Source: Synergistaceae bacterium
Lineage (GTDB): Bacteria > Synergistota > Synergistia > Synergistales > Aminobacteriaceae
NCBI GenBank assembly: GCA_017444345.1
Contig: JAFSWW010000095.1
Location: 1 to 43,805 of the forward strand
Reading direction: 5' to 3'
Length of the DNA stretch: 43,805 nt
Notes under the pieces: model-generated
Seen by the model: the letters and a program-made list of their open reading frames with translations, nothing else
The model's database searches: none
What the model was told of the DNA's origin: nothing
Made by a program: the position numbers and the translations under genes
Shown: piece by piece, positions 6,109-29,598 of the stretch
Layout: the number at the start of each line of letters is the position of its first letter
Position numbering within the stretch: position 1 is the stretch's first letter

Positions 6109-6116
6109 ATATTATT

Positions 6117-6178
6117 AGCTATTTTTCACAGGACGCAATAAAATTTAACTCGCATGTATAATTAACGGTGATTCAAGA
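6117..6178 (+). pseudogene. Remnant C-terminal tail of a papain-like gene
   Basis: In one frame this stretch reads SYFSQDAIKFNSHV, stop, LTVIQE, a shortened and broken version of the tails of the two flanking genes (SYFSEDGQKWQDG...ACIKAFTVIQE). It is evidence of a lost third copy between them. Confidence 0.6.
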
Positions 6179-6298: not shown

Positions 6299-6414
6299 AA
6301 AAATTTTTTGCGATAATCTTTACATTTTTGCTAGTAAGAGAGTCTCACGTGCTGCCTTCACGTTATGACTTGTGCGAATATGGCTATAATATCATCATGG
6401 TGATTCAAGGATGA
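6295..6414 (+). CDS. Second 39-residue mini-ORF of the repeat
   Basis: Second repeat unit, same design: signal peptide (MKKFFAIIFTFLLV...SHV), LPSRYDLCEY and a tail ending IMVIQG. Its TGA overlaps the ATG of the full protease gene at 6411, again as ATGA, so ribosomes could pass through all three in turn. Reading frame and spacing are intact despite about ten substitutions relative to the first unit. Confidence 0.45.
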   Translation: MKKFFAIIFTFLLVRESHVLPSRYDLCEYGYNIIMVIQG

Positions 6415-11973: not shown

Positions 11974-12680
11974 ATTGATTCACCTTGCAATTTCTTGAGT
12001 CTGTACATAGTGGCAATATACGAGCATATAAATTTGAATAAATCGCGCTTTGACTCCCCGTAAAGTCTTTGATTGAATGATATGGGAATCTCTGCGATTT
12101 TTACGTCAGGAAATTTTTTAACGAGCTTGATTAATATTTCTTCTACTATGTCAAAATTATCGCACGTTAATTTTATAGCTTTGAGTTTGGCCGCGTCATA
12201 AATTCTGAAACTGTCTGACACGTCATGAATCTTCAGCCCGAATGAAAATTTATAGCAGATATTCAGGACTCTTGACATTAAGCGCAAAATAAAAGGGTTG
12301 TCCGTGCTGCCTCCCTTTGTGTAACGAGAACCGGCTACAACGTCAAAATTTTTTGTAGTAACTGTCTCATAAAGCCGTGTTATATCTTCAGGATTATGCG
12401 ATGAGTCAGCGTCCATGATAATAATATATTTTCCTGAACATGAATTTATGCCCGTTCTTATAGCGTCGCCGTAGTTATTGCCGCCGATTCTGGGAATATA
12501 ACGCACGTTTTCAAATTCTGCGCAGATTTCAGGAGTTGAATCTTTCGGAGTCTCTGTGTCGACTATAATAATTTCTAACTCAAATATAAATTTTTTGAGT
12601 ATATTATTAATCTTAGGCAGTAAAATTTTTAAGTTCTCGCCCTCTTCATAGCAAGGCATCATAATAGAAAGCTCAATCAT
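11970..12680 (-). CDS. Family 2 glycosyltransferase, dolichyl-phosphate-mannose-synthase-like
   Basis: 236 residues from ATG 12680, chosen because GGAGG precedes it; the longer ORF start lies inside rfbE. GT-A fold: IMMPCYEEGENL at the N-terminus, then VDTETPKDST, the DXD-type IIIMDADSSHNPED and GSRYTKGG. It lacks the C-terminal membrane helices of GtrB-type enzymes, so it is probably a soluble or peripheral transferase using a nucleotide sugar, with polyprenyl phosphate or a glycan as acceptor. It overlaps rfbE upstream by four bases and the broken sugar synthase downstream. Confidence 0.85.
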   Translation of the reverse strand: MIELSIMMPCYEEGENLKILLPKINNILKKFIFELEIIIVDTETPKDSTPEICAEFENVRYIPRIGGNNYGDAIRTGINSCSGKYIIIMDADSSHNPEDITRLYETVTTKNFDVVAGSRYTKGGSTDNPFILRLMSRVLNICYKFSFGLKIHDVSDSFRIYDAAKLKAIKLTCDNFDIVEEILIKLVKKFPDVKIAEIPISFNQRLYGESKRDLFKFICSYIATMYRLKKLQGESI

Positions 12681-13702
12681 ATAAGAGCCTCCGCCCATTT
12701 GAGCATTTTATCAATTCCATTGTCAGCAGTAATTTTAGGAGCCCAGCCTATAGCATTATGAATCTTGCTGATATCAGCAACAAAAATTTTTTGATCGCTT
12801 ATTCTCGGCGGGAGTTGTGTATATTGTAATTCTACATCAAGTTTTGACTCAAGAATTGCGAATAACTCAAGCAGTGAAAGAGATTGCTTCATAGTTCCGC
12901 CGATATTAAATACTTGACCTGAAATTTTCTCGGAATTCTCCAGCGCAGTGTAATAAAGATTTATCATGTCTTCAGCGTGTAAAATGTCTCTGACTTGTTT
13001 GCCGTTGCCTGAAATCGTAAAAGGTTCTGAGTCAGGATTCTTTTTCCGTTCGAGAGCCTTTGCGCAAAACCATCCGACCCAGCCTTGATCATAAGTCGCG
13101 AATTGTCTGCCTCCGTACATTGAAGAGTGCCTGAATATTATTGTCTTTGTCCCGAAAATTCTATGATAATCGAGCATATATTGATCCGCAGCACCTTCTG
13201 AGCAGCCATATGGAGATCTGAAATCAAGCGGCACAGATTCATTAAAGCCGTCCGGGAATTCTTGGCAAATATAGCGCGTTTCATTCTCGTAATAATTATA
13301 TTGCTCTAAATCGCCGTAAACTTTATTAGTTGACGAGAAAATCATAACAGTATCAGGACTGTAAAGCCTTATGGAGTCAAGTACGTTCAGAGTTCCCAGC
13401 GTGTTGACCTGAAAATCTTTATACGGATCAGAAATTGAAGTAGTCATTGCGACCTGCCCGGCCAAGTGAAATATTGCGTCAAATTTTCCGGACTTAATGA
13501 CTCGTTCTACATCGTTGCGGTTTCTTGTATCACCGTGAATAAATGTAAAATTGCCCGGTTTAGATTTCAGCCATTCGAGATTACTTGCTGACCCGTAGCG
13601 CGATAAATTATCAAGGACTGTGATATTATAGCCCCGTTCAAGACCTGCAGAGGCCAAATTACTCCCTAGAAAACCGCAGCCCCCGTTAATTAAAATTTTC
13701 AT
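12677..13702 (-). CDS. rfbE: CDP-paratose 2-epimerase (tyvelose epimerase) with altered active-site lysine
   Basis: 341 residues, close to the Salmonella RfbE/Tyv protein as I know it: GGCGFLGSNLAS, FHLAGQVAMTTSI, SSTNKVYGDLEQY, RHSSMYGGRQFATYDQGWVG and GKQVRDILHAEDMI. The enzyme turns CDP-paratose into CDP-tyvelose with bound NAD. The extended-SDR YxxxK motif reads YGCSE here: Tyr165 is present but the position of the essential Lys, residue 169, is Glu (GAA, one base from AAA). Everything around is conserved, so this looks like a recent inactivating change or a sequence error. It lies between two glycosyltransferase genes and is followed by the broken synthase that would supply its substrate. 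Confidence 0.88.
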   Translation of the reverse strand: MKILINGGCGFLGSNLASAGLERGYNITVLDNLSRYGSASNLEWLKSKPGNFTFIHGDTRNRNDVERVIKSGKFDAIFHLAGQVAMTTSISDPYKDFQVNTLGTLNVLDSIRLYSPDTVMIFSSTNKVYGDLEQYNYYENETRYICQEFPDGFNESVPLDFRSPYGCSEGAADQYMLDYHRIFGTKTIIFRHSSMYGGRQFATYDQGWVGWFCAKALERKKNPDSEPFTISGNGKQVRDILHAEDMINLYYTALENSEKISGQVFNIGGTMKQSLSLLELFAILESKLDVELQYTQLPPRISDQKIFVADISKIHNAIGWAPKITADNGIDKMLKWAEALI

Positions 13703-13725
13703 TCAATAAAATATGCCTACTGTCA

Positions 13726-14664
13726 TTAACTATCAAAATTTATGCGTTCTTCCTCGATTACAAGCGGGCGATTCATGAGTCTGTGATTTATGCTGATTAC
13801 GCACTCGCCTATTAGTCCGAGAAAGATTAACACAACAGCACCCAGAAAGAACATGCCTATTAATATCGGCGCGACTCCTGCGTTAAAAGTGTCCCACCAG
13901 ATTAATTTTGACACGAGATAAAATATTCCGATTAAGAGACTCGCAAAACCTGTTAAGAATCCCATAAAAGTAGCCGCCCTGAGTCCCATTTTCGTATAGG
14001 CTGTAAATCCCTTCATTGCGACATTATAAAGCGTGAAAAAATTATGATGGCTCTTCCCTGCTCGTCTCTTTGGCTGGGTATATTTGATGATTTTAATTTT
14101 ATAGCCGAGTTCCGCAACTATACCGCGCAAAAATGGAGCTGAATCCTTCAAATCCCGTAAAACTTGAATAAATGACCTATCATAGAGTCCGAATCCCGTG
14201 AAGTGTTCTATTTGTTGAATATCAGAAAAATTTTTCATGAATTTATAATAACATGATCTCAAGAAATACATTAATTTATTCTCTTTGCTGTGAGATTTCT
14301 GCATGACGATAATTTTATTGCCTTCTTCCCATGATTTTACCATTTCGGGAATTAGCTCGACAGGATCTTGAAAGTCGCAGGCGCATAATATAACACAATC
14401 TCCGCTAGTTTGCATTAAAGCATGATAGGGAGAATTCAAATCACCGAAATTTTTTGCGTTGAAGATAGCTTTTATTTTATGATTGTCCGAGCAGATTTGC
14501 CGCAAAAGTCCACGAGTCCCGTCCGTAGAATTATTATCTATAAATATTATCTCGTAATCGTAATTATTAAGCTGACTTGTTAAAATATTTGTAACGGCCC
14601 CGCTCATAGGGACAACATTTTCAAACTCGTTATAACATGGAATAACGACACTAATTTTTTTCAT
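13726..14664 (-). CDS. GtrB/DPM1-like polyprenyl-phosphate glycosyltransferase
   Basis: 312 residues. GT-A domain with VVIPCYNEFENV, FIDNNSTDGTR and the DXD-like ACDFQDP, then two C-terminal membrane helices at about 232-256 and 266-292 (ATFMGFLTGFASLLIGIFYLV; ILIGMFFLGAVVLIFLGL). This architecture moves a sugar from a nucleotide donor to undecaprenyl phosphate on the cytoplasmic side, so that it can be flipped and used to decorate a surface glycan. First gene of the 11092-14664 group, with rfbE 23 bases downstream. Donor unknown. Confidence 0.88.
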   Translation of the reverse strand: MKKISVVIPCYNEFENVVPMSGAVTNILTSQLNNYDYEIIFIDNNSTDGTRGLLRQICSDNHKIKAIFNAKNFGDLNSPYHALMQTSGDCVILCACDFQDPVELIPEMVKSWEEGNKIIVMQKSHSKENKLMYFLRSCYYKFMKNFSDIQQIEHFTGFGLYDRSFIQVLRDLKDSAPFLRGIVAELGYKIKIIKYTQPKRRAGKSHHNFFTLYNVAMKGFTAYTKMGLRAATFMGFLTGFASLLIGIFYLVSKLIWWDTFNAGVAPILIGMFFLGAVVLIFLGLIGECVISINHRLMNRPLVIEEERINFDS

Positions 14665-14765
14665 GCGCTGCGATTGCTCCTATCTAAATTTATTCTAATA
14701 AAATATTTGTATATTCTCTTATTTCGTTGATAAGGTCAAGTATTTTGTTAAATATTTATGCTTCA

Positions 14766-14797
14766 TATAAAAATAGACCCGGATTTTACTCCGAGTC
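14766..14797 (-). terminator. Terminator after the aldehyde dehydrogenase gene
   Basis: On the minus strand GACTCGGA pairs with TCCGGGTC (one G-U) around GTAAAA and is followed by TATTTTTAT. It ends the 18185-14818 transcript and insulates the downstream glycosyltransferase group. Confidence 0.82.
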
Positions 14798-14817
14798 CGC
14801 GAAAAATTTTATTTATT

Positions 14818-16299
14818 TTACTCTTCGTCCATTCCGTCCTGATAGAATTCACCGAATAGAGCTTGTAATGACGGCATATCTTCAAGAATAGGACGAGCTA
14901 CCCACGTTGTATTCATATAGTGTTTTAACGTGATATTTTCGCTTACGATATTTCCGCCCCATGTCCCGCAGCCCATTGAGTTAGTAGGAGGCATTCCGTT
15001 TGTTGCGCTTCCTGCATTGCCGCGATTGTTAGGCTGGCGAATCATACAGCGTGATACTGGCGCGCACATTCCGAGACGGTGAATATGATCATCATCAAAC
15101 GAGTAAAGCCCGCAAGAATGTCCCTTACCGCCTGCCTTGTCAAAAATTTCCTGCATAATGTCAAGTGCTGTCTGGAACTCTCCGCCGTATTTGAATAGCG
15201 TTAATAGAGTCGTTAATTTCTCGGTCGAGAAGAAATGTTCTTTGCCGATACATTTTTTAATATCGTCTGCGTTATTAATCGTAAAGCCCTCTTTCTGGCC
15301 GTTATTGGGAACTGCTATAAATTTACGGTCAGCAGGAATCGTGAAGCCGGCTTTTTCCGCAAGTGCCTGCGCAGATATAGCTACAGTGTCAGGGAGTCTG
15401 TGTCCTGTCTCGTCCCACATAACTTTTTTAATGGCTTCGGCCTGTTCCCACGTGGGAATATATGCGCCCTCTTTGATTAAGCCCTCGACAAAATTGTCAT
15501 AGACTGACTCATGAACGATTAAATTTCCGTCGCACGAACACCCTGAGCCGAAATCTGAACACTTTGATATTCTTGTATTCATTGCTGCTTCATAAGCGCG
15601 TTCCTTGGTGTCTGCTGTATTGTCTACTATGACCGTAGAATTTCCTGCGCCTGATCCATAAGCCGGAACTCCTGAAGAATAAGCAGATCTTACCATCGGG
15701 CGGCCTCCTGTTGCTATTACCATGTCGACCATCTTCATTAATTCCTGAGTAAGAGTAATGCTCGGCTCTTCAATTGCTTGAATAATATCAGCTGGTGCGC
15801 CTTCACGTTCGAGAACTCCGCGAATAATATTTACTGTCTTGCAAGTAACTTTTTTCGCTCTGGGATGAGGTGAGCAGATAAGGACATCACGGGCTTTGAC
15901 GGCGTAAATTGCTTGGCCTGCAGGAGTTACGCAGGGATTTGTAGTCGGTACAAGAGTCGCAATGACTCCGACGGGCTTAGCATATTTCACGAGACCTTTT
16001 TCAGGATTTGACTCGATTATGCCTACACTTTTTTGACGTAAACAATCACGCAGGATTAATTTTAACTTGTTGCGCTTATTACGTTTTGTAACTTTATCGC
16101 CGAGTCTAGTCTCGTCAACTGCCTCGTCGCAAATCGGCCCCCATACTTTGAGCGGATATAATGCTGCACAAATTGCCCGGCAAAGATGATCGACTCGTTC
16201 CTGATCATAAGTTGCGATTACTGCTGCGGCTGCCTTTGCTTTCTTGACCATTTCTTCAAGCATTGCTATTTCTTCGGGTGTTACTTCATGATGTGCCAT
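14818..16299 (-). CDS. CoA-acylating aldehyde dehydrogenase
   Basis: 493 residues of the acylating aldehyde dehydrogenase family (AdhE N-terminal, EutE, PduP and SauS relatives). Visible are the NAD-site stretch PVGVIATLVPTTNPCVTPAGQAIYA (read in parts), VIATGGRPMVRSAYSSG, and the nucleophile region SKCSDFGSGCSCDGN, where Cys254 is the probable catalytic residue. It converts an aldehyde plus CoA and NAD to an acyl-CoA. The TPP enzyme 47 bases upstream would make such an aldehyde by decarboxylating or cleaving a 2-oxo compound. The pairing recalls sulfoacetaldehyde and propionaldehyde metabolism, but the substrate cannot be deduced. Codon use is that of an expressed gene. Confidence 0.85.
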   Translation of the reverse strand: MAHHEVTPEEIAMLEEMVKKAKAAAAVIATYDQERVDHLCRAICAALYPLKVWGPICDEAVDETRLGDKVTKRNKRNKLKLILRDCLRQKSVGIIESNPEKGLVKYAKPVGVIATLVPTTNPCVTPAGQAIYAVKARDVLICSPHPRAKKVTCKTVNIIRGVLEREGAPADIIQAIEEPSITLTQELMKMVDMVIATGGRPMVRSAYSSGVPAYGSGAGNSTVIVDNTADTKERAYEAAMNTRISKCSDFGSGCSCDGNLIVHESVYDNFVEGLIKEGAYIPTWEQAEAIKKVMWDETGHRLPDTVAISAQALAEKAGFTIPADRKFIAVPNNGQKEGFTINNADDIKKCIGKEHFFSTEKLTTLLTLFKYGGEFQTALDIMQEIFDKAGGKGHSCGLYSFDDDHIHRLGMCAPVSRCMIRQPNNRGNAGSATNGMPPTNSMGCGTWGGNIVSENITLKHYMNTTWVARPILEDMPSLQALFGEFYQDGMDEE

Positions 16300-16346
16300 T
16301 TCTAAAAAATTTCTCCCTTCTTAAGAATGAAATAATTATATATATA

Positions 16347-18185
16347 TTACTTTGTTATGTGCGATTTTGCATGACTGGGCGGAATATATTTTCCGTCTGA
16401 GTCCTTCTTTACGAGCTTGCCATTCTTGACTAAATCATTAGGCGTGTAAATATCGTTAATGTTCCAGCATCCGGGAGTCGGGACTGCGATATTTTCCATA
16501 ATTGCTTCGACTAAGAACGGGCGGCCGGCTTTGTTAGCTTCAACGGCTTTTGCGAGTGCGGGGGCGAGTTCGTCAGCTGAATTAACGCGGATTGATTCGA
16601 CTCCGTAACCTTTAGCGACTTCTGCCCAGTTTGGCGAATAGACTTCACCATTTGGAGTCTGGAAAGTTGTCCCGAATTTAGTATGATAATTTGCGTTCTC
16701 AAGTCCTGCTATAGTTCCGAATGCGCAATTATTCATAACAAGCCATGTGCAGGCGATTCCCTGTTCTACTGCTGTAGCCATACAAGTGGGATTTACGCCA
16801 AATCCGCCGTCGCCGATTAAAGCAAGACAAATTTTATCAGGAGCCGCAATTTTGCCGCCTAATACTGCACTCGCCCCGAATCCCATAGTTGCGAGTCCTG
16901 ACGAATGATGAACAGTTCCGGGGATTGTAATGTCATACTGCTGGGCGACTCCGTTTTTATTCCAGCCTACATCGGTGAAAATTAACGCGTCCTCAGGTAA
17001 TGCGGCCTTCAAGTCTTTAAGGATTCTCTGCGGAGTCATAGGGAATCGACTATCATTCGAGATTGCAACGTTTGAGGCTTTGAATTCTTCTTTTGCCTTT
17101 GCTATTTTCTCTCTGAGTCCTTCTCGTTTGATTCCATTCGGGCAAATTTTCTTTGCTTCGTCTAATATTTGTGCGAGTGCTAATTTCAAATCTGCTACTG
17201 CTCCAATTTCAACGGGGTAATTTCTGCCGATTTCCGACGGGTCTATATCTATCTGCAAAAATTTAGTAACTGACGGATCAAATGTAACTCCCTGATACCA
17301 GCTTGAGGAGTCGGCCTCCGCAAAACGTGTACCGAGCGCAAGAATTACATCAGCATTTAACGTGAATTCATGAGTATGAGCAAGTCCCCAGAATCCCGTC
17401 TGACCTATCATTAATGGGTGTAAATCACTGACACAGCCATGACCCATTAAAGTCCGTGAAATGGGAATATCAAGAAATTCTGCGAGTGCTGCCAGTTCAT
17501 TAGATGCCTGAGCAAGTAAGACTCCCCCGCCTGCGTGAATAACGGGACTCTTTGCCTCGACTAATTTTTTAGCGATTTCCTTTGCTGCTGCGGGATCAAG
17601 TGCCGGCTTCATAGTTATATGACTGTCATTATAAGTGCGTGCAAATAAGTCCGACTCAATTTCGCGCGACCATATATCCATAGGCATGTCAATTAAAACG
17701 GGTCCGGGGCGGCCTGACTCAGCGAGCCTGAATGCTTTATCAAGAATATCGGGCAGTGCTTCGGGGTCGTCAACTCTCCAACAGCGTTTACAAACCGGCT
17801 CAAGCATTCTATATTGAGTCGCGTCTCCGTGCATATTGACTTCTTGATGAGGGTGCTTGCCGTAATAATAACTGGGAACATCTCCGGCAAAAATTACCAT
17901 AGGAATCGAATCAAATGCGGCATTTGCTACACCGGTCAAAACGTTCGTAATTCCCGGGCCTAAGTGGCACATTACAACAGAAGCCTTGTGAGTTACCCGC
18001 GCATAACCGTCCGCAGCAGTTGAAGCTACAGCCTCATGACGATTTGATATATATTTAATTTTCTTGCTGCGTGAAAGTGCGTCAAGCATTCCAATTACAG
18101 TATGACCGCAAAGGCCAAATATATATTCTACTCCCCTGCGTTCGAGGTAATCGGTTATAAGCTCAGATACTAATTTTTTGCTCAT
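16347..18185 (-). CDS. Thiamine-diphosphate-dependent enzyme, acetolactate-synthase family
   Basis: 612 residues in three domains. N-terminal PYR domain with catalytic Glu51 (SNRHEAVASTAADGYARVT), a central Rossmann-like domain (about 190-330), and a C-terminal PP domain with the TPP motif GDGGFGV...MNN. The length fits acetolactate synthase, sulfoacetaldehyde acetyltransferase and 2-oxoacid decarboxylases. No regulatory subunit gene (ilvN) or other branched-chain genes are near, which argues against amino-acid biosynthesis. The acylating aldehyde dehydrogenase follows in the same operon, so a decarboxylase or carboligase that yields an aldehyde is the best guess. GGAGG precedes the ATG. Confidence 0.85.
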   Translation of the reverse strand: MSKKLVSELITDYLERRGVEYIFGLCGHTVIGMLDALSRSKKIKYISNRHEAVASTAADGYARVTHKASVVMCHLGPGITNVLTGVANAAFDSIPMVIFAGDVPSYYYGKHPHQEVNMHGDATQYRMLEPVCKRCWRVDDPEALPDILDKAFRLAESGRPGPVLIDMPMDIWSREIESDLFARTYNDSHITMKPALDPAAAKEIAKKLVEAKSPVIHAGGGVLLAQASNELAALAEFLDIPISRTLMGHGCVSDLHPLMIGQTGFWGLAHTHEFTLNADVILALGTRFAEADSSSWYQGVTFDPSVTKFLQIDIDPSEIGRNYPVEIGAVADLKLALAQILDEAKKICPNGIKREGLREKIAKAKEEFKASNVAISNDSRFPMTPQRILKDLKAALPEDALIFTDVGWNKNGVAQQYDITIPGTVHHSSGLATMGFGASAVLGGKIAAPDKICLALIGDGGFGVNPTCMATAVEQGIACTWLVMNNCAFGTIAGLENANYHTKFGTTFQTPNGEVYSPNWAEVAKGYGVESIRVNSADELAPALAKAVEANKAGRPFLVEAIMENIAVPTPGCWNINDIYTPNDLVKNGKLVKKDSDGKYIPPSHAKSHITK

Positions 18186-18363: not shown

Positions 18364-20219
18364 TTGTCAAGTAAGAAATTTTTTATATTCTCGTTAATTG
18401 CTGCGTCACTGCTATTTGCGATTTTTCAGGAGGCTGCGGAGGGGGCGGCGGCACTATTCTACAACCTGATAATGATGACTCAGGCGAAAAAGTACAGACA
18501 GGCTCAGACCTCGAAAAATTTTTTATAAGCAATGACCATATTGCAATACTCAACGAAATTATTTCAGAGCAAAGTCTTAATCCCCCGCTTAAAGGTCAGA
18601 ATATAGGCGGCAAAATTATTTTATTTACATCAGAATCAAATTTCACGGACACTGATATAAATTTATCTGACGCACTCAAGAACGGCTATACAATCGGGCT
18701 TATATATGCAAATGAATCACGAATTAATGAATGCTTGAGTCTACTCGGAGTCAATAATAAATATACAGCCCCTGCGAATCAAAATAATTCTAACGTAGAA
18801 ATTTTTGCAATATCCCAGCGCGAAATTAGCGGACTTGACAAGACATTTATTTATACAACGCCTCATCTCAGCAATTTAACGAAAAATAGCAGCGATAACG
18901 AAGAACCCGAAGATCATGACTGTGTAAATATTAATATCAGCAATGACGAACAAATTACGAATCAAATCAGCGGGGATAAATCGGACATTTTGCCGCCTGA
19001 ATTCACGCGTGAAGATTTCAACAGGAACAGGGTAAAAGATTTCTTGCAGTGGGTAGTAAGTCTTGATATATTGCCGGATAATAAATTCAATAGCAGCACG
19101 GAAGATTGAACGAACCTTGTAGCAGGCAAGAATTATCAATTTAGTTTCACTTATACGTCAAGCGGCGAATACAAATGGGACTATTACCCGAACCGGCCGA
19201 ATTTATTAAATTATACTGTCTATTCTGTGCATTCATTTGCTGACGGGACGGACTATTATTTAATCAAGCTCAACAGCACAACAAATCCATCTAATCAATT
19301 TGCGGACGTAACTAACCGGGAAATTTGCGGAGATAACTACAAAAGTAATCATGTTTCAGGCTACACACGCCAGCTTTACTGGTCTCACAGTGTGAGTGAC
19401 TCGGCACATAATGACGACGTTACAATTATTCAGCACAGCCCCGAAACTTTGAACTCTTCAAGGACTCATTCAGAAGGATTTACCCATAATTTTAGCGGGA
19501 GTATAGGCTTCAGCGGCACAAATGCAAGCGGGAGTTTTTCCGGCGGAGTAAGCTATTCAACTACTGACACTACGACAATTTATGACTATGTAGTTAATAA
19601 TCGCTGCCTCGAAGATAATTTAAGCACTGCGAGATGGGCTTATGTATTCTCTTTGCCTGCTGACGGAGAAGATCATATAAATCTAACTGATGATTATCAG
19701 GAAGTAAACGCGACAACTGCATCAAGAACTACTCACACAGCCCATATAGATTGGATTTATGCAGTAAAGCCCGTTTACTGGGATACTCATAATAAACTCA
19801 ATATAGGCGCAATGTATAGCTTTATGGACGGCAAGACTAACGGCAAACATTTCTGGATTCTCTGGTATCATCACAGCAGGGACGATTATTCATATGACTG
19901 GGTAAATAATGAATTTTTCTTGACGCTTGATAAGCCGCATCATATTGCAATAAATAACAGCGCAAATGTAAATCTCACAAAATCAGCAGGTCAGGGAACA
20001 TTTAATTTATTATCCGATAAAAGCTGGGAGATAACAGCCGATCAAGACTGGATCACAAGTTTTAATTACACGAGCGGTGAAGGAACCGGCGACTCACCTG
20101 TTGCTATATTATATGACGTAGCAGAGAACACTACGGGAGTAATACGCAATGCAAATATAATCATCACAGCGAGCGACGGCGAAAAATGCACAGTTAAGAT
20201 CAGTCAATCAGGAAATTAA
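18364..20219 (+). pseudogene. Broken lipoprotein gene with C-terminal BACON-like domain
   Basis: A TTG at 18364, ten bases after AAGAAGG, starts a lipoprotein signal (KKFFIFSLIAASLLFAIF), but one base is missing at the T5 run 18422-18426; restoring it gives FSGGC, a good lipobox, followed by a Gly run and an acidic linker. From there one frame runs to an in-frame TGA at 19105-19107 (FNSSTED, stop, TNLVAGKNYQFSF) and continues without change to 20219. The second part holds a Ser/Gly-rich beta region and a BACON-like domain (SDKSWEITADQDWI...CTVKISQSG), usually found in surface proteins. One deletion plus one nonsense codon mark a decaying or switched-off surface lipoprotein. The part from 19227 has no good ribosome site. 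Confidence 0.75.
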
Positions 20220-20285: not shown

Positions 20286-21172
20286 TTATTTTTTCATGAA
20301 TACAAAATTTGTATCTTGTGTATCTTCTCTAATTTCGTCAATGACTTCAAGCTCTGAGCCTCTCACTACATGGCCGGTATATCCCATATCATGAAGCAAA
20401 TTAAATACTTCGCAAGCCTCATGACCGAGCGCCCGGCACCATTTACGCAAAATTTCAATAAATATAACCGGTGATTTATTGCGCAAAAATTTTTCTCCGC
20501 CCCTCAATACAAAGAGTTCTGAGCCTTCAACATCAATTTTTATGACATCAGGATAAATATTATTATAATCAACAAAATCATCAAGCCTGATAAAATTAGC
20601 TCTCTCTTTATGGCCTGTACCTCGTATATTTCTAAGAGACCCTGCGCCGCTTTCTGACTCGTTAAAATACATTTCCTGCGTACTCTCATGATCAGAGAAT
20701 CCAAAATTATGAGCCGCAATATTAATACAAGAATTTAATGCAATATTACGCAAAAATTTCATATAAGTGTGATTAATGGGCTCAAACGAGAAAATTTCAG
20801 CATTCGGGTTAGTTTTGCCGCAAATTAAAGAATAATAGCCCGCATTTGCTCCGACATCAAAGAAAGTTTTACAAGTTTTTATGCTGTCTATCAACTTGCG
20901 CGAGTAATCCCCTTCAACATCATAGAAGCAAAGTGCTTGAGTACACGGCGAAGAAATATCATTTACATCAACGAACATTTTAATCGGGACTGAATCAAAT
21001 TCGCATGTTATGCCCCCCCCCCCCTAGTCATATTTACTGATTTTACATCAGTATTTGCCATTAGATCGCCTATTTCAGCGAGCAGAGTCAAAGACTTGTG
21101 AATGCTTTCACGATAATCAGGTTTGCTGATACTGCCTGATAAATAACTTGCGCGTAAATCTCTTAGTGCCAT
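20286..21172 (-). CDS. FkbM-family methyltransferase, out of frame at a G12 tract
   Basis: The real start is ATG 21172, eight bases after GGAGG (MALRDLRASYLSG). After about 48 codons comes a run of 12 G on the coding strand. With 12 G the frame reaches TAA two codons later; with 10 or 13 it runs on through SVPIKMFVDVND into the SAM-binding motif FFDVGANAGYYSL and VIKIDVEGSELFVLRGG, as in FkbM O-methyltransferases. So the copy sequenced is in the off state, unless translation restarts at ATG 20978. It is last in the 29598-20286 glycan operon and would O-methylate a sugar of the surface glycan. Confidence 0.85.
21013..21024 (-). repeat. Poly-G tract (G12) in the methyltransferase gene
   Basis: Twelve G on the coding strand, the longest homopolymer of its kind in the window, placed near the gene start where slippage switches translation fully on or off. 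Confidence 0.93.
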
Positions 21173-21193
21173 AATAACGCCTCCATATAAATA

Positions 21194-22252
21194 TTAAATT
21201 TTCCTGCTGTCTATTACGAGCTTGAATCCTTCTTTTGCGCTAATTTCAGGACTCCAGCCTAGACTCATTATTTTATGAATATCAGGCGGATAATCTGCTC
21301 GTTCAGGACTCAATCTGTAGCCTTTATCATTGCGGGATTTATATATGACCTGTAAATTTTTTTCCGGGTATAAATCAGCTAGAATATTTGCGAGTTCCCT
21401 AATTGAGAGCCATTGATTTATATTTGCGAGATTATAGGACTCTCCTGCTTGGCCGTCCAGTAAAACAAGAAACATTGCATTAACCGCGTCAGTGATATAA
21501 CAAAATGCGCGTCTTGCTGCTCCGTCGCTGGTCATGATAATATTTTCGTTATTAATCACATTGCGCACAAACTCAGAGAAAGCCCGTTTATCTTGATCTA
21601 TATCCATTGTAGGGCCGTAAGTGTGATAGATTCTTATTGATTTAGCCGGTATATTATATTCGCTGAAATAAGCATGACACAAAGCCTCCCCGCAGCGTTT
21701 TGACTCGCCGTAAGAATTCCCGTTGTCAAGAAAATTCATAGAGCCTATATTATTTTCGCTTGCTGATGAGTTTATAGACCCGTAGACGCTCCCGGAACTG
21801 AAAAAAAGAAAACTTTTAACATGAAAATTTTTAGCGTATTCAAGTAAATTATATGTGCCTATTACATTTGGTAAAATCACTTCGACGGGGATTTGATTAT
21901 AATATTGAGGACTCGCGGGGCTTGCTGCATGAATAATATAATCGACTCGTTGATTTATTGAAATATTATTATTTACGTCATCGAGAATCAAATTAAAATA
22001 TTTTTTTCTTGCATAAATTCCGAAACGATTCAGAGCCTTTGTTTTGTCGCGAACATTAGCAAAAATTTTTATCCCGTAATTATGGCATTCATTTAAGAAA
22101 ATCAAGAAATATGTCAAGTAAGAAGCAAGCATTCCGGACGCTCCTGTGATATAAAAACTTGAATCCTTCAAACGTTCGGGATTCTTGAAAGAGTGATAAA
22201 TTTTTGCCATATCAGATTTTATTACTTGATTGTCGAGAAAATTACGCAGCAT
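21194..22252 (-). CDS. Sugar-nucleotide SDR, UDP-glucuronate-decarboxylase/epimerase-like
   Basis: 352 residues of the extended SDR family. GASGMLASYL lies unusually deep (about residue 40), after a 35-residue N-terminal extension. Further motifs are DYIIHAASPASPQYY, SSGSVYG, the active site YGESK and RIYHTYGP. The HAASPASP and Tyr-Thr-Tyr-Gly-Pro signatures resemble UDP-xylose synthase. It begins inside the last codons of the preceding SDR gene (11-base overlap), so its translation may depend on that gene's reading frame through the G9 tract. Product unknown; a step on a nucleotide sugar is certain in kind. Confidence 0.83.
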   Translation of the reverse strand: MLRNFLDNQVIKSDMAKIYHSFKNPERLKDSSFYITGASGMLASYLTYFLIFLNECHNYGIKIFANVRDKTKALNRFGIYARKKYFNLILDDVNNNISINQRVDYIIHAASPASPQYYNQIPVEVILPNVIGTYNLLEYAKNFHVKSFLFFSSGSVYGSINSSASENNIGSMNFLDNGNSYGESKRCGEALCHAYFSEYNIPAKSIRIYHTYGPTMDIDQDKRAFSEFVRNVINNENIIMTSDGAARRAFCYITDAVNAMFLVLLDGQAGESYNLANINQWLSIRELANILADLYPEKNLQVIYKSRNDKGYRLSPERADYPPDIHKIMSLGWSPEISAKEGFKLVIDSRKI

Positions 22253-23243
22253 TCTCCGCCGCCCTCCCTGTGAATGTGAAAATATTATTAGAGAGGGCAG
22301 ACGCTTTATTAATTACTAAGCGATAATACCCCCCCCCGTAAGTAATTTTAACTATTTTATTTATGCCATCGCTGAAATTAATAGACGGTTTGAATCCAGT
22401 ATCACGAGTCAATTTGCTAATATCTGCGCACATACTAGGCGGGACATTATTTATATAAGGCACTTCACCGAATCCGAGTTCAGATTTTGAGCCGGTTATT
22501 TCTTTCATGGCCTGAATATAATATTTTATTGTCTGAGATTGTCCGCTCCCTAAACAGTAAATTTCTGACTTGTAAGAATCAAACTCTCCCAGTAAGTAAA
22601 ACGCCCTCGCTGCATCATCACAATATAAATAATCCCATTTTTGAATTCCCTGAGTCAGTGAGCAGTGTTCATTATGAATTAATTTCTTGAGAGTGCTTAT
22701 AATCATTGACTCGGAGCTGTCATTTATTCCGTAAGTGCTGAATATACGGACATGAGCGAAATTTATAGATAAATTCCTGCATTCAAGAGCGCATAATTTA
22801 CCCGCTGCCAGTTTGCTGATTCCGTAGGCTGTAATAGGATTCGCGTAAGTCTCCGGTGTAGTAAATTCCTCTTCATGAATTCCGTATTCAGCTTGAGAGC
22901 CTGCGAATATAAATTTTTGACAGTGAAATTTTTTAGCGAGTCTTGCTGCCTTTATTGAATGAATTATATTTATTGCTTGAGATTCTGGGTCATTGCGTCC
23001 GGCCTTATTCGTAGCTTCCCAGCCGAAATGATAAAAGACTTCGCAGTCAGGGAGTCCCGATAAATTTTCAAGTTCTGACAAATCGCACTCGATTATATTT
23101 ATAAATTTTGACTCGGGAATGCGGTTTATTTTGCCTGAATGTCGCCTCACAAGAGCATAAATATTTATTTCGTGTTTAATGCATTCATTTATAAGCGACA
23201 CACCTAACATGCTTGTAGCTCCGGTTAAAATAATATTCTTCAC
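22242..23243 (-). CDS. Sugar-nucleotide SDR, dideoxyhexose 4-reductase-like, with 3' G9 tract
   Basis: An NAD(P)-dependent SDR: GATSMLGVSL, YHFGWEATN, GSQAEYG, active site YGISK, RIFSTYG, then TQGIQKWDYLYCDDAARAFY and SELGFGEVPY. The last two blocks parallel abequose/paratose synthase, so it probably reduces a 4-keto sugar, perhaps the product of the neighbouring split transketolase. The SDR part ends near GINKIVKI. A run of nine G follows, and in this count the frame continues for about 30 extra residues to a stop overlapping the next gene; with 8 or 10 G it would stop within 4-9 codons of the tract. Confidence 0.82.
   Translation of the reverse strand: MKNIILTGATSMLGVSLINECIKHEINIYALVRRHSGKINRIPESKFINIIECDLSELENLSGLPDCEVFYHFGWEATNKAGRNDPESQAINIIHSIKAARLAKKFHCQKFIFAGSQAEYGIHEEEFTTPETYANPITAYGISKLAAGKLCALECRNLSINFAHVRIFSTYGINDSSESMIISTLKKLIHNEHCSLTQGIQKWDYLYCDDAARAFYLLGEFDSYKSEIYCLGSGQSQTIKYYIQAMKEITGSKSELGFGEVPYINNVPPSMCADISKLTRDTGFKPSINFSDGINKIVKITYGGGYYRLVINKASALSNNIFTFTGRAAENAA
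22329..22337 (-). repeat. Poly-G tract (G9) at the 3' end of an SDR gene
   Basis: Nine G on the coding strand, after the last conserved SDR residues. Its length decides the C-terminal tail and how close translation ends to the next gene's start. Confidence 0.92.
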
Positions 23244-24127
23244 TTGATCAACTCCTTCAGATTCAGGCCGTTATTGTCCCTATAATAGTCTTGAGATCCG
23301 TATAATTTGCTTGAATATCCATGTGCATATAAAATTTTAAAATTTTCGGGAATAATTCCGGACTCTAACATAATCGCGCTGAACTGTTCACCGAGTCCGC
23401 CCGTCTTTACGTGATCTTCAATTATGAAAAGTGTATCACAATTCTTTATATCGTTAAATAATTCAAATGGGACTGAATTAATCTCAAGCGGCAAAACTCC
23501 GCAGGCCCATACAGAAAAATTTTTATCGCGGCAAAAATGTAACACACTCCCGGCCATGTTGCCAATTACGAGAATGACTCCGGCAGAACCTGATATTAAT
23601 TTGCGGAACGGGGCAAAATTTTCGTGTTTATAATTATCGCCATTAAAAGACTCATCGCGGCCAAGTCTTATATAAACAGGGTGCTGGAATTTTATTATAT
23701 TATTCACGAGTCCTGTCATATCATCAGCAAAAGAAGGCACAAAAATTTTCATATTCTGCAAAGTGCTTAGAGTCCCGTAATCTTCTAATGCGTGATGAGT
23801 CGGCCCTGAATTACCATAGCCGTAACCTGCTCCGCTGCCGATCAAGCAAACCTGTAAATCATGAAGACAAATATCATTGCGAATCTGTTCAAACGCCCTA
23901 GCATAAATAAACGGTGAAATACTATACACGAACGGACGCAAACCCATTTTTGCGAGACCTGCAGCAAGTGAAATCATATTCTGTTCAGCTATTCCGGCAT
24001 TTATGAATCTCTCGCCGAGTACATTTTGAAGCGGCTCAAGTGCGTTAAATCCTAAATCGCCGGTCAATACACAAAATTTCGGGTCATCTTTATAACTAAG
24101 CAGCGAATTTATAAGACTCTTGCGCAT
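23240..24127 (-). CDS. Transketolase-like protein, C-terminal (PYR) subunit
   Basis: 295 residues matching the second half of transketolase/DXP synthase. Catalytic Glu is in INAGIAEQNMISLAAGLA; YARAFEQIRNDICLHD and GSGAGYGYGNSGPTHHALED follow; the C-terminal swivelling domain is present. It pairs with the N-terminal subunit just upstream (19-base overlap). Split two-gene transketolases in sugar operons are thought to act on special substrates. Here the pair lies directly between rfbH and a 4-ketoreductase-like SDR gene, so transfer of a two-carbon unit onto a CDP-4-keto sugar is the working idea; pentose-phosphate metabolism is less likely in this place. Confidence 0.88.
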   Translation of the reverse strand: MRKSLINSLLSYKDDPKFCVLTGDLGFNALEPLQNVLGERFINAGIAEQNMISLAAGLAKMGLRPFVYSISPFIYARAFEQIRNDICLHDLQVCLIGSGAGYGYGNSGPTHHALEDYGTLSTLQNMKIFVPSFADDMTGLVNNIIKFQHPVYIRLGRDESFNGDNYKHENFAPFRKLISGSAGVILVIGNMAGSVLHFCRDKNFSVWACGVLPLEINSVPFELFNDIKNCDTLFIIEDHVKTGGLGEQFSAIMLESGIIPENFKILYAHGYSSKLYGSQDYYRDNNGLNLKELIK

Positions 24128-24900
24128 TGTAAGGCCTCCTTGTAAATTTGTCCGTCGACTTTGATATAGTGAGATTCTAAAGTGTCTTGATAGATTCCCA
24201 TTCCCTCGCCCTTAATAGAATTTACCAGCAAAGCACAAGGCACTTCAGGATTAATACACGTTAAATTCTCGAATAATAAATCAAAATCGTGTACATCACA
24301 TTTTTTAACGTCAGCACCGAACGCCTTTATTCTTGACTCGAGTCCTTCAATTCCATAGCCTATTACTTTTTTTACTGAGCCAAAGCCCTGCCAGTTATTA
24401 CAGTCAATTATGAGCGATAAATTTTTGAGTTTATGAGAGACCGCAAAATTTAAAGCCTCCCAGCACGCGCCCTCTTGGAATTCGCCGTCTCCGCAAATGC
24501 AGAATACACGCCCGGACTCGTTCATAAAATTTTTAGCCAACGCACAGCCCGCAGCAAGTGAAAGCCCATGACCTAGACTCCCAGTTCCAAAGGGTGCAAA
24601 ATTTACGAGATCTACAGGGGGATGAGCTCCGAGTTTGACTCCGTCTTGACAGCAATTTTTTATATCAGAGTCGCTTATATAGCCCCGTAAAGCAAGAACG
24701 CAATACAAAGCTGAAACTGTATGACCCTTTGAGAGAATTAATAAATCTTGATTTGCGTCAAATATTCCGGAAAATAATACATAAAGCACAGGCAGAATCG
24801 AAATACTCCCGCCCGTGTGTACCATGCCAGAGTCTTTGTGAAGAGTCAATAATTTAATGTATAATTCGCGATATTCTTCACGTGAAAAATTTTTATTCAT
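24109..24900 (-). CDS. Transketolase-like protein, N-terminal (TPP-binding) subunit
   Basis: 263 residues from ATG 24900; a GTG 12 bases earlier lies inside the AGG ribosome site. It shows ILSKGHTVSALYCVLA, GSLGHGLSLAAGCALA and the TPP/Mg motif GDGEFQEGACWEALNFA...IDCNN. It lacks the PYR half, which is supplied by the next gene. All residues expected for cofactor binding are present, so the split pair should be active. It follows rfbH by 25 bases. Confidence 0.88.
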   Translation of the reverse strand: MNKNFSREEYRELYIKLLTLHKDSGMVHTGGSISILPVLYVLFSGIFDANQDLLILSKGHTVSALYCVLALRGYISDSDIKNCCQDGVKLGAHPPVDLVNFAPFGTGSLGHGLSLAAGCALAKNFMNESGRVFCICGDGEFQEGACWEALNFAVSHKLKNLSLIIDCNNWQGFGSVKKVIGYGIEGLESRIKAFGADVKKCDVHDFDLLFENLTCINPEVPCALLVNSIKGEGMGIYQDTLESHYIKVDGQIYKEALQCARVL

Positions 24901-24925
24901 AAATTGCCGCACCTGCTATTAAAAT

Positions 24926-26266
24926 TTACTCATTTTTTAGCGCAAATTCCTTTATTGAATCGGCCATAAATTTCAGCATTTCGTCATTCATTCCGGGGTA
25001 AACTCCGATCCAGAACGAACGCGACATAATTATGTCAGTATTCTCAAGATTGCCGATTATTCTATAACCCTTGCCGGAGTCTCTCATTTCGTTAAAACAA
25101 GGGTGCCGGGTAATATTTCCTGCGAATAACATACGAGTTTGAATTTTTTGCGACTCAAGATATTTAACAAGTTCGTCGCGCGAGAATTTAGCCGAATCTT
25201 TCACAGTTAAGAGAAAACCGAACCAGCTAGGTTTTGAATTTCTTTCAGGACTGGGCAGAATAAATAAATCTTCAAGTTCAGAAAGCGCGTCCCTCAAAAA
25301 TTGCCAGTTATGCCACCTTGCTTGAGTGAAAGCACTTAATTTTTCCAACTGTGCGCACCCTATAGAAGCCTGCAAATCCGTAGCTTTTAAATTATAGCCA
25401 AAATGTGAATACGTATATTTATGATCATAGCCGAACGGGAGAGTCCCTAATTGCTGGGAGAATCTTTTGCCGCAAGTCCCGTCTTGACCTGAAGGACACC
25501 AGCAATCACGCCCCCAGTCACGCAGGGAATTCACAATTTTATGTAATTCATAATTATTTGTGTAGACTGCTCCGCCCTCGCCCATTGTTATATGATGAGG
25601 AGGATAAAAACTTGATGTAGCTATATCTCCTATAGTGCCCGTAAAATGCCATGAGTTATTATATAAATATTCAGAGCCTAAAGAGTCGCAGTTGTCTTCA
25701 ATCAGCCATAAATTATTTTTCTCGCAAAAATTTTTTATCTCGGCCAAATTAAACGGGTTGCCCAGAGTGTGAGCTAACATTACGGCTTTAGTGCGGGGAG
25801 ATAAGGCCTCTTCAAGCTGAGAAATTTTCACGTTGCAGGTGTCAAGCTCTACATCAATAAAAACTGGTACTGCTCCGTATTGAATTATTGGCGCGATTGT
25901 TGTCGGAAATCCTGCCGCAGCTGTTATGACCTCGTCGCCCTTGAGAATTCGCCGTGATTTCAGTTCGGGTTGAGTTAGTGCCATGAAAGCTAAAAAATTT
26001 GCCGATGATCCTGAATTTACTAGAGAACAGAATTTTACTCCGAGAATTTGCGCGAGTCTTGTCTCGAATTTATTAGCCCATTCTCCTGAAGTCAGCCAAA
26101 AATCTAATGAAGCACTCACTAAATTTTGCAGTTCGTGAACGTCATAGACTCGTCCGGCGTATCTGATAGGGTCTCCTGGCTTGTATGATTTATTCTCATG
26201 AGCGAGCGAGCAATATTCACTCACTAGAGATAAAATTTTTCCGCGTAAATCTTCCTTATTATTCAT
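24926..26266 (-). CDS. rfbH: CDP-6-deoxy-D-xylo-4-hexulose 3-dehydratase (E1)
   Basis: 446 residues of the PLP- and iron-sulfur-dependent dehydratase that removes the 3-hydroxyl in 3,6-dideoxyhexose synthesis. In place of the aminotransferase lysine it has the diagnostic histidine (SSFYPPHHITMGEGGAV), so it dehydrates rather than transaminates. The cluster ligand pattern C-x-C-x7-C is seen in RDCWCPSGQDGTCGKR. It needs an E3-type reductase (RfbI/AscD), which is not in the window. It lies between the disrupted membrane glycosyltransferase and the split transketolase. The sequence gives no sign of damage. Confidence 0.93.
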   Translation of the reverse strand: MNNKEDLRGKILSLVSEYCSLAHENKSYKPGDPIRYAGRVYDVHELQNLVSASLDFWLTSGEWANKFETRLAQILGVKFCSLVNSGSSANFLAFMALTQPELKSRRILKGDEVITAAAGFPTTIAPIIQYGAVPVFIDVELDTCNVKISQLEEALSPRTKAVMLAHTLGNPFNLAEIKNFCEKNNLWLIEDNCDSLGSEYLYNNSWHFTGTIGDIATSSFYPPHHITMGEGGAVYTNNYELHKIVNSLRDWGRDCWCPSGQDGTCGKRFSQQLGTLPFGYDHKYTYSHFGYNLKATDLQASIGCAQLEKLSAFTQARWHNWQFLRDALSELEDLFILPSPERNSKPSWFGFLLTVKDSAKFSRDELVKYLESQKIQTRMLFAGNITRHPCFNEMRDSGKGYRIIGNLENTDIIMSRSFWIGVYPGMNDEMLKFMADSIKEFALKNE

Positions 26267-26275
26267 GAAATATAA

Positions 26276-27751
26276 TCAGCTCCTTATAATTGCGAGAAAA
26301 TATAATATAAACGGGCACGAACAAGCTAGCACATTAACTAATAATCTAAGCATGACATAGGACCGCAAAGAATAATTTATATAATTTGAATTACTTGTTT
26401 TACGCGGAAGAGCAAGCCACGCGCATGTCCATATACAGACAAAATAAATGCTGTTAAATATTGCATGAGTCTTAAATAATTTCACGATAAAATCAATTAT
26501 CTTAGTTGATTTTATGTTAGTCCGCTGTCTTGCTATAGCTTCTACGTTAATTAAAGCCGGGCTGCCCGTTAACTTGTGAAGTAACATATTAATTGCGTTA
26601 TTGGGAGTGTAACACCAGAAATATATACAATAATTCGAGAATATCAACGCGGCAATTGCTAGAGTCTCAAATAATAAAAATTTTCGCGAGTCTATATAAT
26701 TACATACGCTCATAATTGCCAAATACGGAATCATGTGCATAAACCAGTATGGGTAACTAGAGAAGCTCGTGAAGAAAACTATAAACGAAAGCATAGCAGT
26801 GAAAATTATATGATGATTAATCGAGTCTCTATCCTGAGAGTCTTTATATTCATGCAGCCAGCAATAAACGCATAAAGCCCCGAACATAACTAGAAAGACT
26901 CTCACATTACCGTGAAAGAAAGGCAATTTATTCGCTAATAATTTTCCTGCCATTCCCAGTGTAAAACCTGCCCGACTCTTTGCTGCTCCTGAAACTAACA
27001 TAATGGGCAAATTACAAAGCAAAGTTACTACACCCAGCAAAAATATTTTTCCGGCAATCTTCAATAAATTTTTATCACGTAATAATAATAAGGGTATAAA
27101 TATAAATACTGCAAATTGCTTAAACTGTGCAGCAACAATAAACCAGAACAAAAATTTTTTATTCTCATTCTTGATATATGCAAGCAAGCCCAGAAGAGTC
27201 AAGCATATGCAAAATATATCACATTGTCCGACGTTCCCTATTACGCTTATTGACATTGCCGATGTAAAATAAATATATGCTCCCCAGCGTGATTTTTGCG
27301 AGTTTATATTAATTACACGACAAATTTTATAGATAAGAACAGACGAGAAAATAAACGCGATTAGTAATATACTCTTCCCGTAGAACATTTGTCAAAAACT
27401 TTCAGGAAAATTAACTACAAGTTCTCCGCTTCGTGAACACCATAAATATAACGGAATCCCCCATAGACCAAATATAAGATTAATCGGCAAATCGTAAATT
27501 GAGAGGCTGCTCAATTCATAACCAGAAGAACATACAACAGTTATTGCGTTTTTGTAAGCAAGACTCAGATCTCCGTGCAAAATAGCTTCTGCAAATTTAA
27601 GCTCATAAAGAATAAACCAAGAAGGATCCATGTAACAAAATGACATGAACGCGAATAATAGAAATCCAAATGCTAATGCCCATTCAAATTTTGACGGCCC
27701 GTACTCGCAAAGTTCAGGCCTTACGCTTAAATTTTGATTATTATCATTCAT
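26276..27751 (-). pseudogene. Multi-spanning membrane glycosyltransferase split by an in-frame TGA
   Basis: Start ATG 27751 lies two bases after the rfbG stop. The first 119 codons (one membrane helix near 25-45, then DPSWFILYELKFAEAILHG as in membrane mannosyl/glucosyl transferases) end at TGA 27394-27392, and the same frame resumes at once (QMFYGKSILLIAFIF) with about eight more helices for 371 residues. The amino acid pattern across the junction, F-[TGA]-QMFYGKS, fits a lost Trp (TGG to TGA). It is either a nonsense-mutated GT-C type transferase or one read through at low level: TGA followed by C is a leaky context. No frameshift is needed. Confidence 0.75.
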
Positions 27752-27753
27752 TA

Positions 27754-28836
27754 TTAATTTACCCCGTAGAAATCTAAAATTTTTGAATCCATATAAGAAA
27801 TTATGCCGCCTTTTCCGCGATAAACTTTCAGCCAGCTTACTACTTCATTAACTGCTTGAGTTATATTCCATTCAGGCCGCCACCCTAAGACACTTTTTGA
27901 CTTTGCACAGTCAAGTTTTAAAATATTTGCTTCATGTTCATGATATTTATTTGCCTGATCATGAATAATAATATTTAATCCCTCATTGAGTTCAGAGCAA
28001 AAAATTTCTGTTAATTCCCTTGTTGTAACGCATGAACTCTCATCGGGACCGAAATTATAGCTGCCTTCGTATAATTCTTTATTATCAAATTGTTTCATGG
28101 CCAATAATAAATAACCGTGCAGGCATTCTAAAACGTGTTGATATGGCCGGATTGAATCAGGATTTCGCAGGATAATATTTTCATGTTTTAAAGCACTTCT
28201 CACACAGTCTGGAATTATTCTATTTTCTGCAAAATCTCCGCCGCCTATGACATTTCCGGATCTTGCTGTAGATATTGCCGGGGAGTCTTTCTTGCTAAAA
28301 AATGAATTCCTGTAGCTATAACTCACAAGCTCAGAACATGATTTAGAATTTGAGTAGGGATCATAGCCGCATAAAGTCTCGTTCTCGCGATAACCCCATA
28401 CCCATTCGCGATTTAGATAAACTTTATCAGTTGTTACATTCACGAAAGATTTTAGAGATTCGCACTCTCTAGCAGCTTCTAAAATATTTACAGTGCCCAT
28501 TATATTTACTTCATATGTATAGGCCGGTCTCTTGTATGAGTCTATAACTAAAGGCTGGGCGGCCATGTGTATTATTATATCGGGCTGAAATTCTTTCACG
28601 GCGGATTTTAGATAGTAAATGTCTCTAATATCAGCGAAATAATTTTTAACTCGGCCTGAGAGTCTCAATATATCAAATAAATTTTCATGCTCTGAATTTG
28701 AATCAGAAGGTGAAAGCGCATAACCTCCGACAATTGAGCCGAAATTTAGCAGGACTTCACAAAGCCACGAGCCTTTAAAACCTGTATGACCAGTGATGAA
28801 GACTCTTTTATTGCGATAAAAATTTTTTAGTCCCAT
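27754..28836 (-). CDS. rfbG: CDP-glucose 4,6-dehydratase
   Basis: Extended SDR of 360 residues that converts CDP-glucose to CDP-4-keto-6-deoxyglucose, second step of the CDP-dideoxyhexose path. It shows FITGHTGFKGSWLCEVL, HMAAQPLVIDSY, VTTDKVY with the following Asn-Arg-Glu, active site YSNSK and RSGNVIGGGDFAENR, typical of RfbG. A GTG at 28845 is an alternative start, but ATG 28836 suits the family N-terminus. It overlaps rfbF by ten bases. Its substrate is made by RfbF, which is out of frame in this sequence. Confidence 0.93.
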   Translation of the reverse strand: MGLKNFYRNKRVFITGHTGFKGSWLCEVLLNFGSIVGGYALSPSDSNSEHENLFDILRLSGRVKNYFADIRDIYYLKSAVKEFQPDIIIHMAAQPLVIDSYKRPAYTYEVNIMGTVNILEAARECESLKSFVNVTTDKVYLNREWVWGYRENETLCGYDPYSNSKSCSELVSYSYRNSFFSKKDSPAISTARSGNVIGGGDFAENRIIPDCVRSALKHENIILRNPDSIRPYQHVLECLHGYLLLAMKQFDNKELYEGSYNFGPDESSCVTTRELTEIFCSELNEGLNIIIHDQANKYHEHEANILKLDCAKSKSVLGWRPEWNITQAVNEVVSWLKVYRGKGGIISYMDSKILDFYGVN

Positions 28837-29598
28837 AATTTCCACGCTGCTTTATTGTTATTCCAGAGGGATTCAAGCAAATTTTTATCTCTCAATGTGT
28901 CCATAGGCTGCCAGAATCCCGAATGTTTGTAGACTGCTAATTGATTTTCACGTGCTAGAGTCTCTAAGGGTTCAGCTTCAAAAATTGTAGAGTCGCCTTC
29001 TATATAGTTAAATACTTCAGGTTCAAGCACAAAGAATCCGCCGCTGATCCAACTTCCATCGCCTGAAGGTTTCTCTTTAAAGTTTGTGACTCTATTGCCT
29101 GAGATATTTATATGTCCATAACGTCCCGGGGGTTGTACTGCTGTAACTGTCGCAAAACAATTTTGTGATTTGTGAAATTCGATTAGATTCTTGATGTTAA
29201 TATCAGCGACTCCGTCACCATATGTGAGAAGAAATGCCCCCCCCCCCTAAGTAATTATACACACGTTTTAATCTTCCGCCGGTCATACTTTTCTCGCCGG
29301 TATCAACAAGAGTAACTTTCCAAGGCTCGGCAGTATTTGAATGTACCTGCATTTGTCCCGTCGACATATCGAACGTAATATCTGACATGTGAAGACAATA
29401 ATTTGCAAAATATTCTTTTATCATGTAGCCTTTGTAGCCTAAGCAAATAATGAACTCATTTATCCCGAAACATGAATAAATTTTCATGATGTGCCACAAA
29501 ATAGGATGTCCGCCGATTTCTACCATAGGTTTAGGGCGTATTACTGTCTCTTCGCTTAAACGAGTTCCCATGCCTCCAGCTAAAATTACAGCCTTCAT
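28827..29598 (-). CDS. rfbF: Glucose-1-phosphate cytidylyltransferase, out of frame at a G11 tract
   Basis: First enzyme of the pathway (CTP + glucose-1-phosphate to CDP-glucose). N-terminal part: [48 protein letters not shown]. After TTA comes a run of 11 G, which puts the rest in the wrong frame and leads to a stop 8 codons on. In the other frame the family sequence resumes at once: [44 protein letters not shown] and [15 protein letters not shown], ending LWD at 28827. With 10 or 13 G the gene is whole; 13 gives the usual family length. No other lesion is present, so this is a switch rather than decay. First gene of the operon. Confidence 0.93.
29237..29247 (-). repeat. Poly-G tract (G11) in rfbF
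   Basis: Eleven G on the coding strand between the LKRVYNYL and FLLTYGDG blocks of rfbF. Ten or thirteen would restore the frame. Confidence 0.95.

Follow-up and report, generated by a model that had tools for sequence, protein, structure and literature searches.

A candidate poly-G contingency locus in an FkbM-family methyltransferase gene of a Synergistaceae bacterium, and a dyad motif beside poly-G tracts of its genus

Background

Is a methyltransferase gene that the consensus sequence reads out of frame a gene switched by the length of a G tract? This question is raised by an FkbM-family gene in a 43,805-nucleotide stretch of Synergistaceae DNA (here the window), which makes up an entire contig (C95) in a draft genome of 2.33 Mb in 141 contigs (G000). 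Poly-G contingency loci are mainly known from Campylobacter, Helicobacter, Neisseria and other host-associated Proteobacteria, and FkbM genes are phase-variable elsewhere. Our literature search returned no report of phase variation in the phylum Synergistota.

Results and discussion

The FkbM gene and its tract

The gene lies on the minus strand (20286-21172). Its product matches PF05050 (E 4e-15, 56.7 bits, cut-off 22.7) and TIGR01444 (E 3e-27, 96 bits, cut-off 37.7) with a complete domain. A Shine-Dalgarno GGAGG (21180-21184, minus strand) is located 7 nt 5' of the ATG at 21172, and 148 nt lead from this ATG to exactly 12 consecutive G (21013-21024, C12 on the plus strand), which occupy codons 50-53 and are followed by CATAA. 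Across the tract the frame reads ...ACT AGG GGG GGG GGG GCA TAA. The upstream frame of 49 codons and the downstream frame of 241 codons are fused at tract lengths of 1 mod 3; the present length is 0 mod 3, leaving the gene out of frame at the consensus length, and once the tract is 1 mod 3 the product has approximately 294 aa. As computed from the frames, a change in tract length toggles an intact FkbM gene in and out of frame. A shorter frame of 230 aa, starting at ATG 20978, also contains the FkbM domain.

The initial annotation had described the GGAGG, the ATG at 21172 and the 12 G with a TAA behind them, and had read the gene as phase-off, with one more G opening the whole domain. Coordinates, tract length and stop were all correct, and the frames fuse as it had claimed. 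Its placing of the tract near the N-terminus holds in that the tract precedes the FkbM domain, but at codons 50-53 it does not directly follow the start codon. The second, tract-free FkbM gene that it had reported at 42721 was likewise found (42721-43626, minus strand).

Both gene and tract are retained in two relatives, G016 (91% identity) and G034 (68% identity), and a close relative of the gene occurs in the genome of an uncultured Synergistales bacterium from red deer. The tract has 12 G in both G000 and G016 and a different length, 10 G, in G034. In the two relatives the consensus is likewise OFF, all three orthologues being off in the same sense. Comparison of G000 with G016 gave a dN/dS of 0.10 after the tract, showing purifying selection even though the consensus is out of frame. 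All 5 changes against G016 in the 11 codons that separate the tract from ATG 20978 are synonymous (0 non-synonymous), and ATG 20978 is therefore not the sole start. Together with the dN/dS of 0.10, this pattern implies that translation must often cross the tract in the ON frame. Codons 1-49 differ from those of G016 by 2 synonymous and 9 non-synonymous changes, which gives no sign of purifying selection, and the first 22 codons differ from those of G034 by 7 synonymous and 6 non-synonymous changes, with MxLxDLRxSYLSGSISKxDY conserved. A start at ATG 20978 whatever the tract length, which had been named as a possible refutation of the switch, is contradicted by the coding-like evolution of the stretch before it. 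The proposal that the tract is a switch agrees with all points that can be tested on sequence (conserved tract, selection in the ON frame, coding-like codons).

The surrounding glycan cluster

The cluster of the FkbM gene holds three more G tracts, making four in the window. According to profile matches, the region 21194-29598 encodes a CDP-3,6-dideoxyhexose pathway. A block of these genes on the minus strand (21194-28845; TIGR02622 with 435 bits, cut-off 278; NF011936 RfbH with 711 bits, cut-off 423) comprises an rfbG-type CDP-glucose 4,6-dehydratase (27754-28845), rfbH (24926-26266), two transketolase halves (23240-24912) and epimerases (21194-23243), as well as an EpsG-like protein (26276-27388). 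The glucose-1-phosphate cytidylyltransferase gene rfbF (28827-29598, minus strand; TIGR02623) is split by a G11 tract (29237-29247, minus strand) and out of frame; TIGR02623 positions 1-117 are matched before the tract and 122-255 after it, and the halves fuse at 1 mod 3. Directly 5' of this tract lies a dyad-like sequence, TGTGTATAATTACTTA (29248-29263, minus strand), with a moderate score of 6.7. In the OFF state rfbF should block CDP-dideoxyhexose synthesis at its first step, and the cluster would therefore have at least two nested switches, FkbM and rfbF.

The two other tracts are in frame. One is a G9 tract (22329-22337, minus strand) near the C-terminus of an NAD-dependent epimerase/dehydratase (22242-23243, minus strand), which is a G10 tract in G034. 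The other is a G10 tract (11482-11491, minus strand) following 16 codons of an epimerase C-terminal fragment (11092-11541, minus strand), with the dyad TACGTAATTTACACA located 2 nt 5' of it (11494-11508, minus strand; score 13.4). The region 11970-18185 encodes additional glycosyltransferases together with an epimerase, a dehydrogenase and an acetolactate-synthase-like enzyme.

Elsewhere in the window, two adjoining papain-type peptidases with lectin-like C-terminal domains are encoded on the plus strand (4975-7670). The protein encoded at 19227-20219 and those at loci L086, L090 and L108 are large proteins with weak Pfam matches to BACON and the leukocidin family; some proteins of this kind have G tracts behind a signal-peptide-like start, and they are probably beta-rich surface proteins.

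Poly-G tracts in the genome and the genus

In the window, which has a G + C content of approximately 40%, G runs of 4, 5, 6, 7 and 8 nt were counted 78, 25, 4, 2 and 0 times, and runs of 9, 10, 11 and 12 once each. The entire G000 genome contains 46 runs of at least 9 G, compared to approximately 2 expected by an estimate from base composition. Their lengths range from 9 to 18, 12 being the commonest, and they are mostly present in surface-glycan genes. Tract-bearing genes encode three AlgX-like proteins, LicD, TylF, GNAT, GT6, DUF4422, glycosyltransferases, EpsG, an aminotransferase, a CDP-glycerol transferase-like protein and a PEP mutase/cytidylyltransferase. Another FkbM gene (L070, G000:C8:8433) has a G14 tract 28 codons past its start and is in frame, whereas the FkbM gene of the window is out of frame; a single genome thus holds FkbM genes in the ON and in the OFF state. 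In congeners the number of runs of at least 9 G ranges from 2 to 59, and glycan genes are again among the carriers.

The phases were tallied by hand. Of the 19 clear coding tracts of G000, 10 leave their gene in frame, whereas 5 would have to gain a base and 4 to lose one to do so; for the congeners these numbers are 3, 6 and 6. The occurrence of tract loci in all three phases fits what slippage predicts. Loss of mismatch repair was considered as a cause of the many tracts and rejected, as mutS is intact in the tract-rich genomes G017, G027, G033 and G034. In G000 itself, mutS (L186, G000:C138, around 2006-2025) is split by a frameshift at a site with no homopolymer, model residues 2-244 and 245-838 being matched in different frames; this is either an assembly error or a real loss.

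A dyad motif beside the tracts

On the G strand, a dyad of 14-16 bp, TAMGTAAWTTTACKNA, lies 5' of many tracts at a near-fixed, species-specific distance. It was first found in G000 and then in G017, G027, G033 and G034. An EM motif search gave log-likelihoods of 101-218, versus 41-67 for shuffled flanks. The distance from the 16-mer to the tract is approximately 0-1 nt in G000, 1-2 nt in G027, 2-3 nt in G017, 2 nt in G034 and 3-4 nt in G033. With an independent profile, built from the four other species alone, 19 of the 45 upstream flanks in G000 scored above the 99th percentile of the window background, where 0.45 were expected (P 2e-16), compared to 1-2 of the 43 downstream flanks. The association of the dyad with tracts is a solid statistical finding. 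Directly 5' of the FkbM tract the dyad reads TCAGTAAATATGACTA (21025-21040, minus strand) and is kept in G016 and G034, with profile scores of 10.7 in G000, 12.5 in G016 and 11.9 in G034 against a background 99th percentile of 8.5.

The strict dyad pattern was present in 20 of the 83 family genomes, 19 of them in this genus, and the reversed pattern in none; judged from these genomes, the dyad appears almost confined to the genus. It was absent from the poly-G runs of five other genera of the family and order, and viral contigs gave no match. Full dyads are rare away from tracts, and beside G runs of 3-7 in G000 the dyad occurs at background level. Among the 44 runs of at least 9 G in genome G026, the six inspected (L116, L121, L126, L131, L136 and L141) are without the dyad, which is therefore not required. 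With the independent profile, dyad score and tract length were not correlated (rho 0.20, P 0.20), and an apparent trend of the score by length class disappeared. A codon artefact was rejected as well, since the dyad accompanies coding tracts in each of the three possible frames, as well as tracts in leaders and intergenic regions. Nor does a strict species-specific spacing hold for each orthologous pair: the oxidoreductase-like locus L080 has the same spacing in G034. The species-typical spacing is instead a tendency within each genome.

Gain and loss of tracts

Among the relatives compared, the rfbF tract is present in G000 only. At this site G016 has CGTATTTATAAATACTTGGCCGGAGAGACATTT and G000 has CGTGTGTATAATTACTTA, followed by the G run and CATTT, and at an in-frame tract length the rfbF protein is as long as those of the relatives. 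A histidine kinase gene contains both tract and dyad in G000 and G016 and neither in G012, at nearly equal length. At both loci the tract took the place of native sequence with no net insertion; the dyad lies over coding sequence that is conserved. The PEP mutase gene of G016 has no tract and is 14 nt shorter, a difference compatible with insertion or deletion, and in one of the G034 copies the tract is interrupted. Across orthologues, dyad and tract tend to be gained or lost as a pair. Tracts are thus often gained and lost, and in at least some of the gains existing sequence is replaced and nothing inserted.

Interpretation

We give a probability of approximately 0.8 to the joint reading of the FkbM gene as a poly-G contingency locus, one of approximately 46, and of the dyad as most likely helping tracts to arise or persist. 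For the gene itself, it can be predicted with good confidence that it is an ordinary locus of this kind. Slippage at the run of 12 G would alter the tract length in living cells; at 1 mod 3 the methyltransferase of approximately 294 aa would be made, and at other lengths translation would stop just after the tract. The predicted product would O-methylate a glycan. With approximately 46 switch loci concentrated in surface-glycan genes, a population would probably show many glycan variants.

As regards the dyad, either a putative DNA-binding protein recognises it or it marks sequence prone to tracts, and in both cases tracts would arise or persist beside it. The likeliest functional reading, we infer, is a DNA-binding protein that favours the birth or upkeep of tracts; a passive preference of slippage or of selection for dyad-like flanks is a possible alternative. 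The stronger proposal, that the genus has a dedicated dyad-recognising system which creates, lengthens or stabilises poly-G at a set distance, so that the tracts would be programmed and not the outcome of passive slippage and selection alone, we consider doubtful.

Several other explanations were weighed against the joint reading. Full-length FkbM could be made from 12 G by programmed -1 ribosomal frameshifting or by RNA-polymerase slippage, with the tract as a recoding site: the FkbM frame would be regained by a -1 shift on G GGG GGG, and the three orthologues agree in phase, each lacking one base and meeting a stop immediately past the tract. One phase common to three loci is weak evidence (approximately 1 in 9 by chance), however, and tracts of this genome and its congeners occur in all three phases instead of constantly in the shifted one, including in-frame genes where recoding would harm; we regard recoding as quite improbable. 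The chance is smaller still that the gene has decayed or truly starts at ATG 20978, which would make the upstream part and the tract irrelevant. Although the frame from this ATG holds the domain and the N-terminal codons lack purifying selection between G000 and G016, the purely synonymous changes in the 11 codons before it, the N-terminal motif kept in G034 with 7 synonymous changes and the Shine-Dalgarno at the 21172 start all argue against such a start, and the dN/dS downstream excludes long-standing decay. That the runs are sequencing or assembly artefacts is hardly credible. Two-colour sequencing can yield false poly-G at read ends, and four contigs end in or beside a tract, but the tracts are internal with unique flanks, occur at orthologous sites in separate genomes and share a 5' motif that is absent beside short G runs.

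Two further explanations bear on the dyad. It could form, together with the tract, a mobile REP- or MITE-like mini-element whose insertion as a whole would seed switches, as their co-occurrence, their joint coming and going and the rarity of the full dyad elsewhere might suggest. Against this, native sequence was replaced, with no net insertion, in rfbF and in the histidine kinase gene, and there the dyad covers conserved coding sequence; target duplication was absent at the few loci compared, and viral contigs gave no match. We find a mini-element unlikely. The inverted-repeat look of the dyad next to the tract could also suggest a hairpin, formed in RNA or in single-stranded DNA, that causes polymerase slippage on the tract. 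Its arms do not covary, paired positions matching no more often than when shuffled. This points to the half-sites of a protein rather than to a hairpin; the hairpin reading is disfavoured and given little chance.

Comparison with known systems and significance

In Campylobacter, poly-G/C contingency loci amount to tens of tracts per genome, and non-variable homologues without a repeat exist (PhasomeIt, PMC6321876). G000 is alike in its tens of poly-G tracts, but it belongs to another phylum and its tracts have most often 12 and up to 18 G, versus 9-10 in Campylobacter; the text of that paper contains no mention of a conserved sequence beside tracts. Like the FkbM gene described here, Campylobacter jejuni Cj1295 is a glycan-modifying enzyme gene with a homopolymeric tract (PMC3068675), the difference being that the FkbM gene lies in a CDP-dideoxyhexose cluster. 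With known FkbM methyltransferases (PF05050, TIGR01444; structure 2py6) the product shares the same complete domain, above the cut-offs, whereas its expression, unlike theirs, would be gated by the G tract in a 50-residue N-terminal extension.

A gut genus of the Synergistales thus has as many poly-G loci as the Proteobacteria known for them, and these loci are aimed at surface glycans. The dyad is apparently a DNA motif so far undescribed. Its conservation at a near-fixed, species-typical distance would to our knowledge be the first sign of possible sequence-guided formation or upkeep of tracts, and it makes an old question testable, namely whether hypermutable tracts are passive or helped by the cell. 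G026, tract-rich and with six inspected tracts free of the dyad, provides a natural contrast for finding a gene that binds it.

Surveys of gut bacteria by metagenome-assembled genomes (MAGs) miss switchable surface genes, because assemblies break at the tracts and the genes read as broken. Contigs C272 and C224 of G016 and C107 of G034 end at or within approximately 55 nt of sites that have tracts in G000, and tract counts in fragmented MAGs are therefore likely to be underestimates. Three contig ends (L075, L085 and L095) share CGAGTARTGGGG... as their end, with 16-18 G and without the dyad; they represent either an artefact of contig ends or a distinct sequence present in several copies.

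Finally, at L084 (G000:C37, near 4742) a flagellin gene is directly preceded by a short leader ORF that contains a G13 tract with a strong dyad. At one phase of the tract, the stop of this ORF overlaps the flagellin start, an arrangement that suggests phase-variable translational coupling of flagellin.
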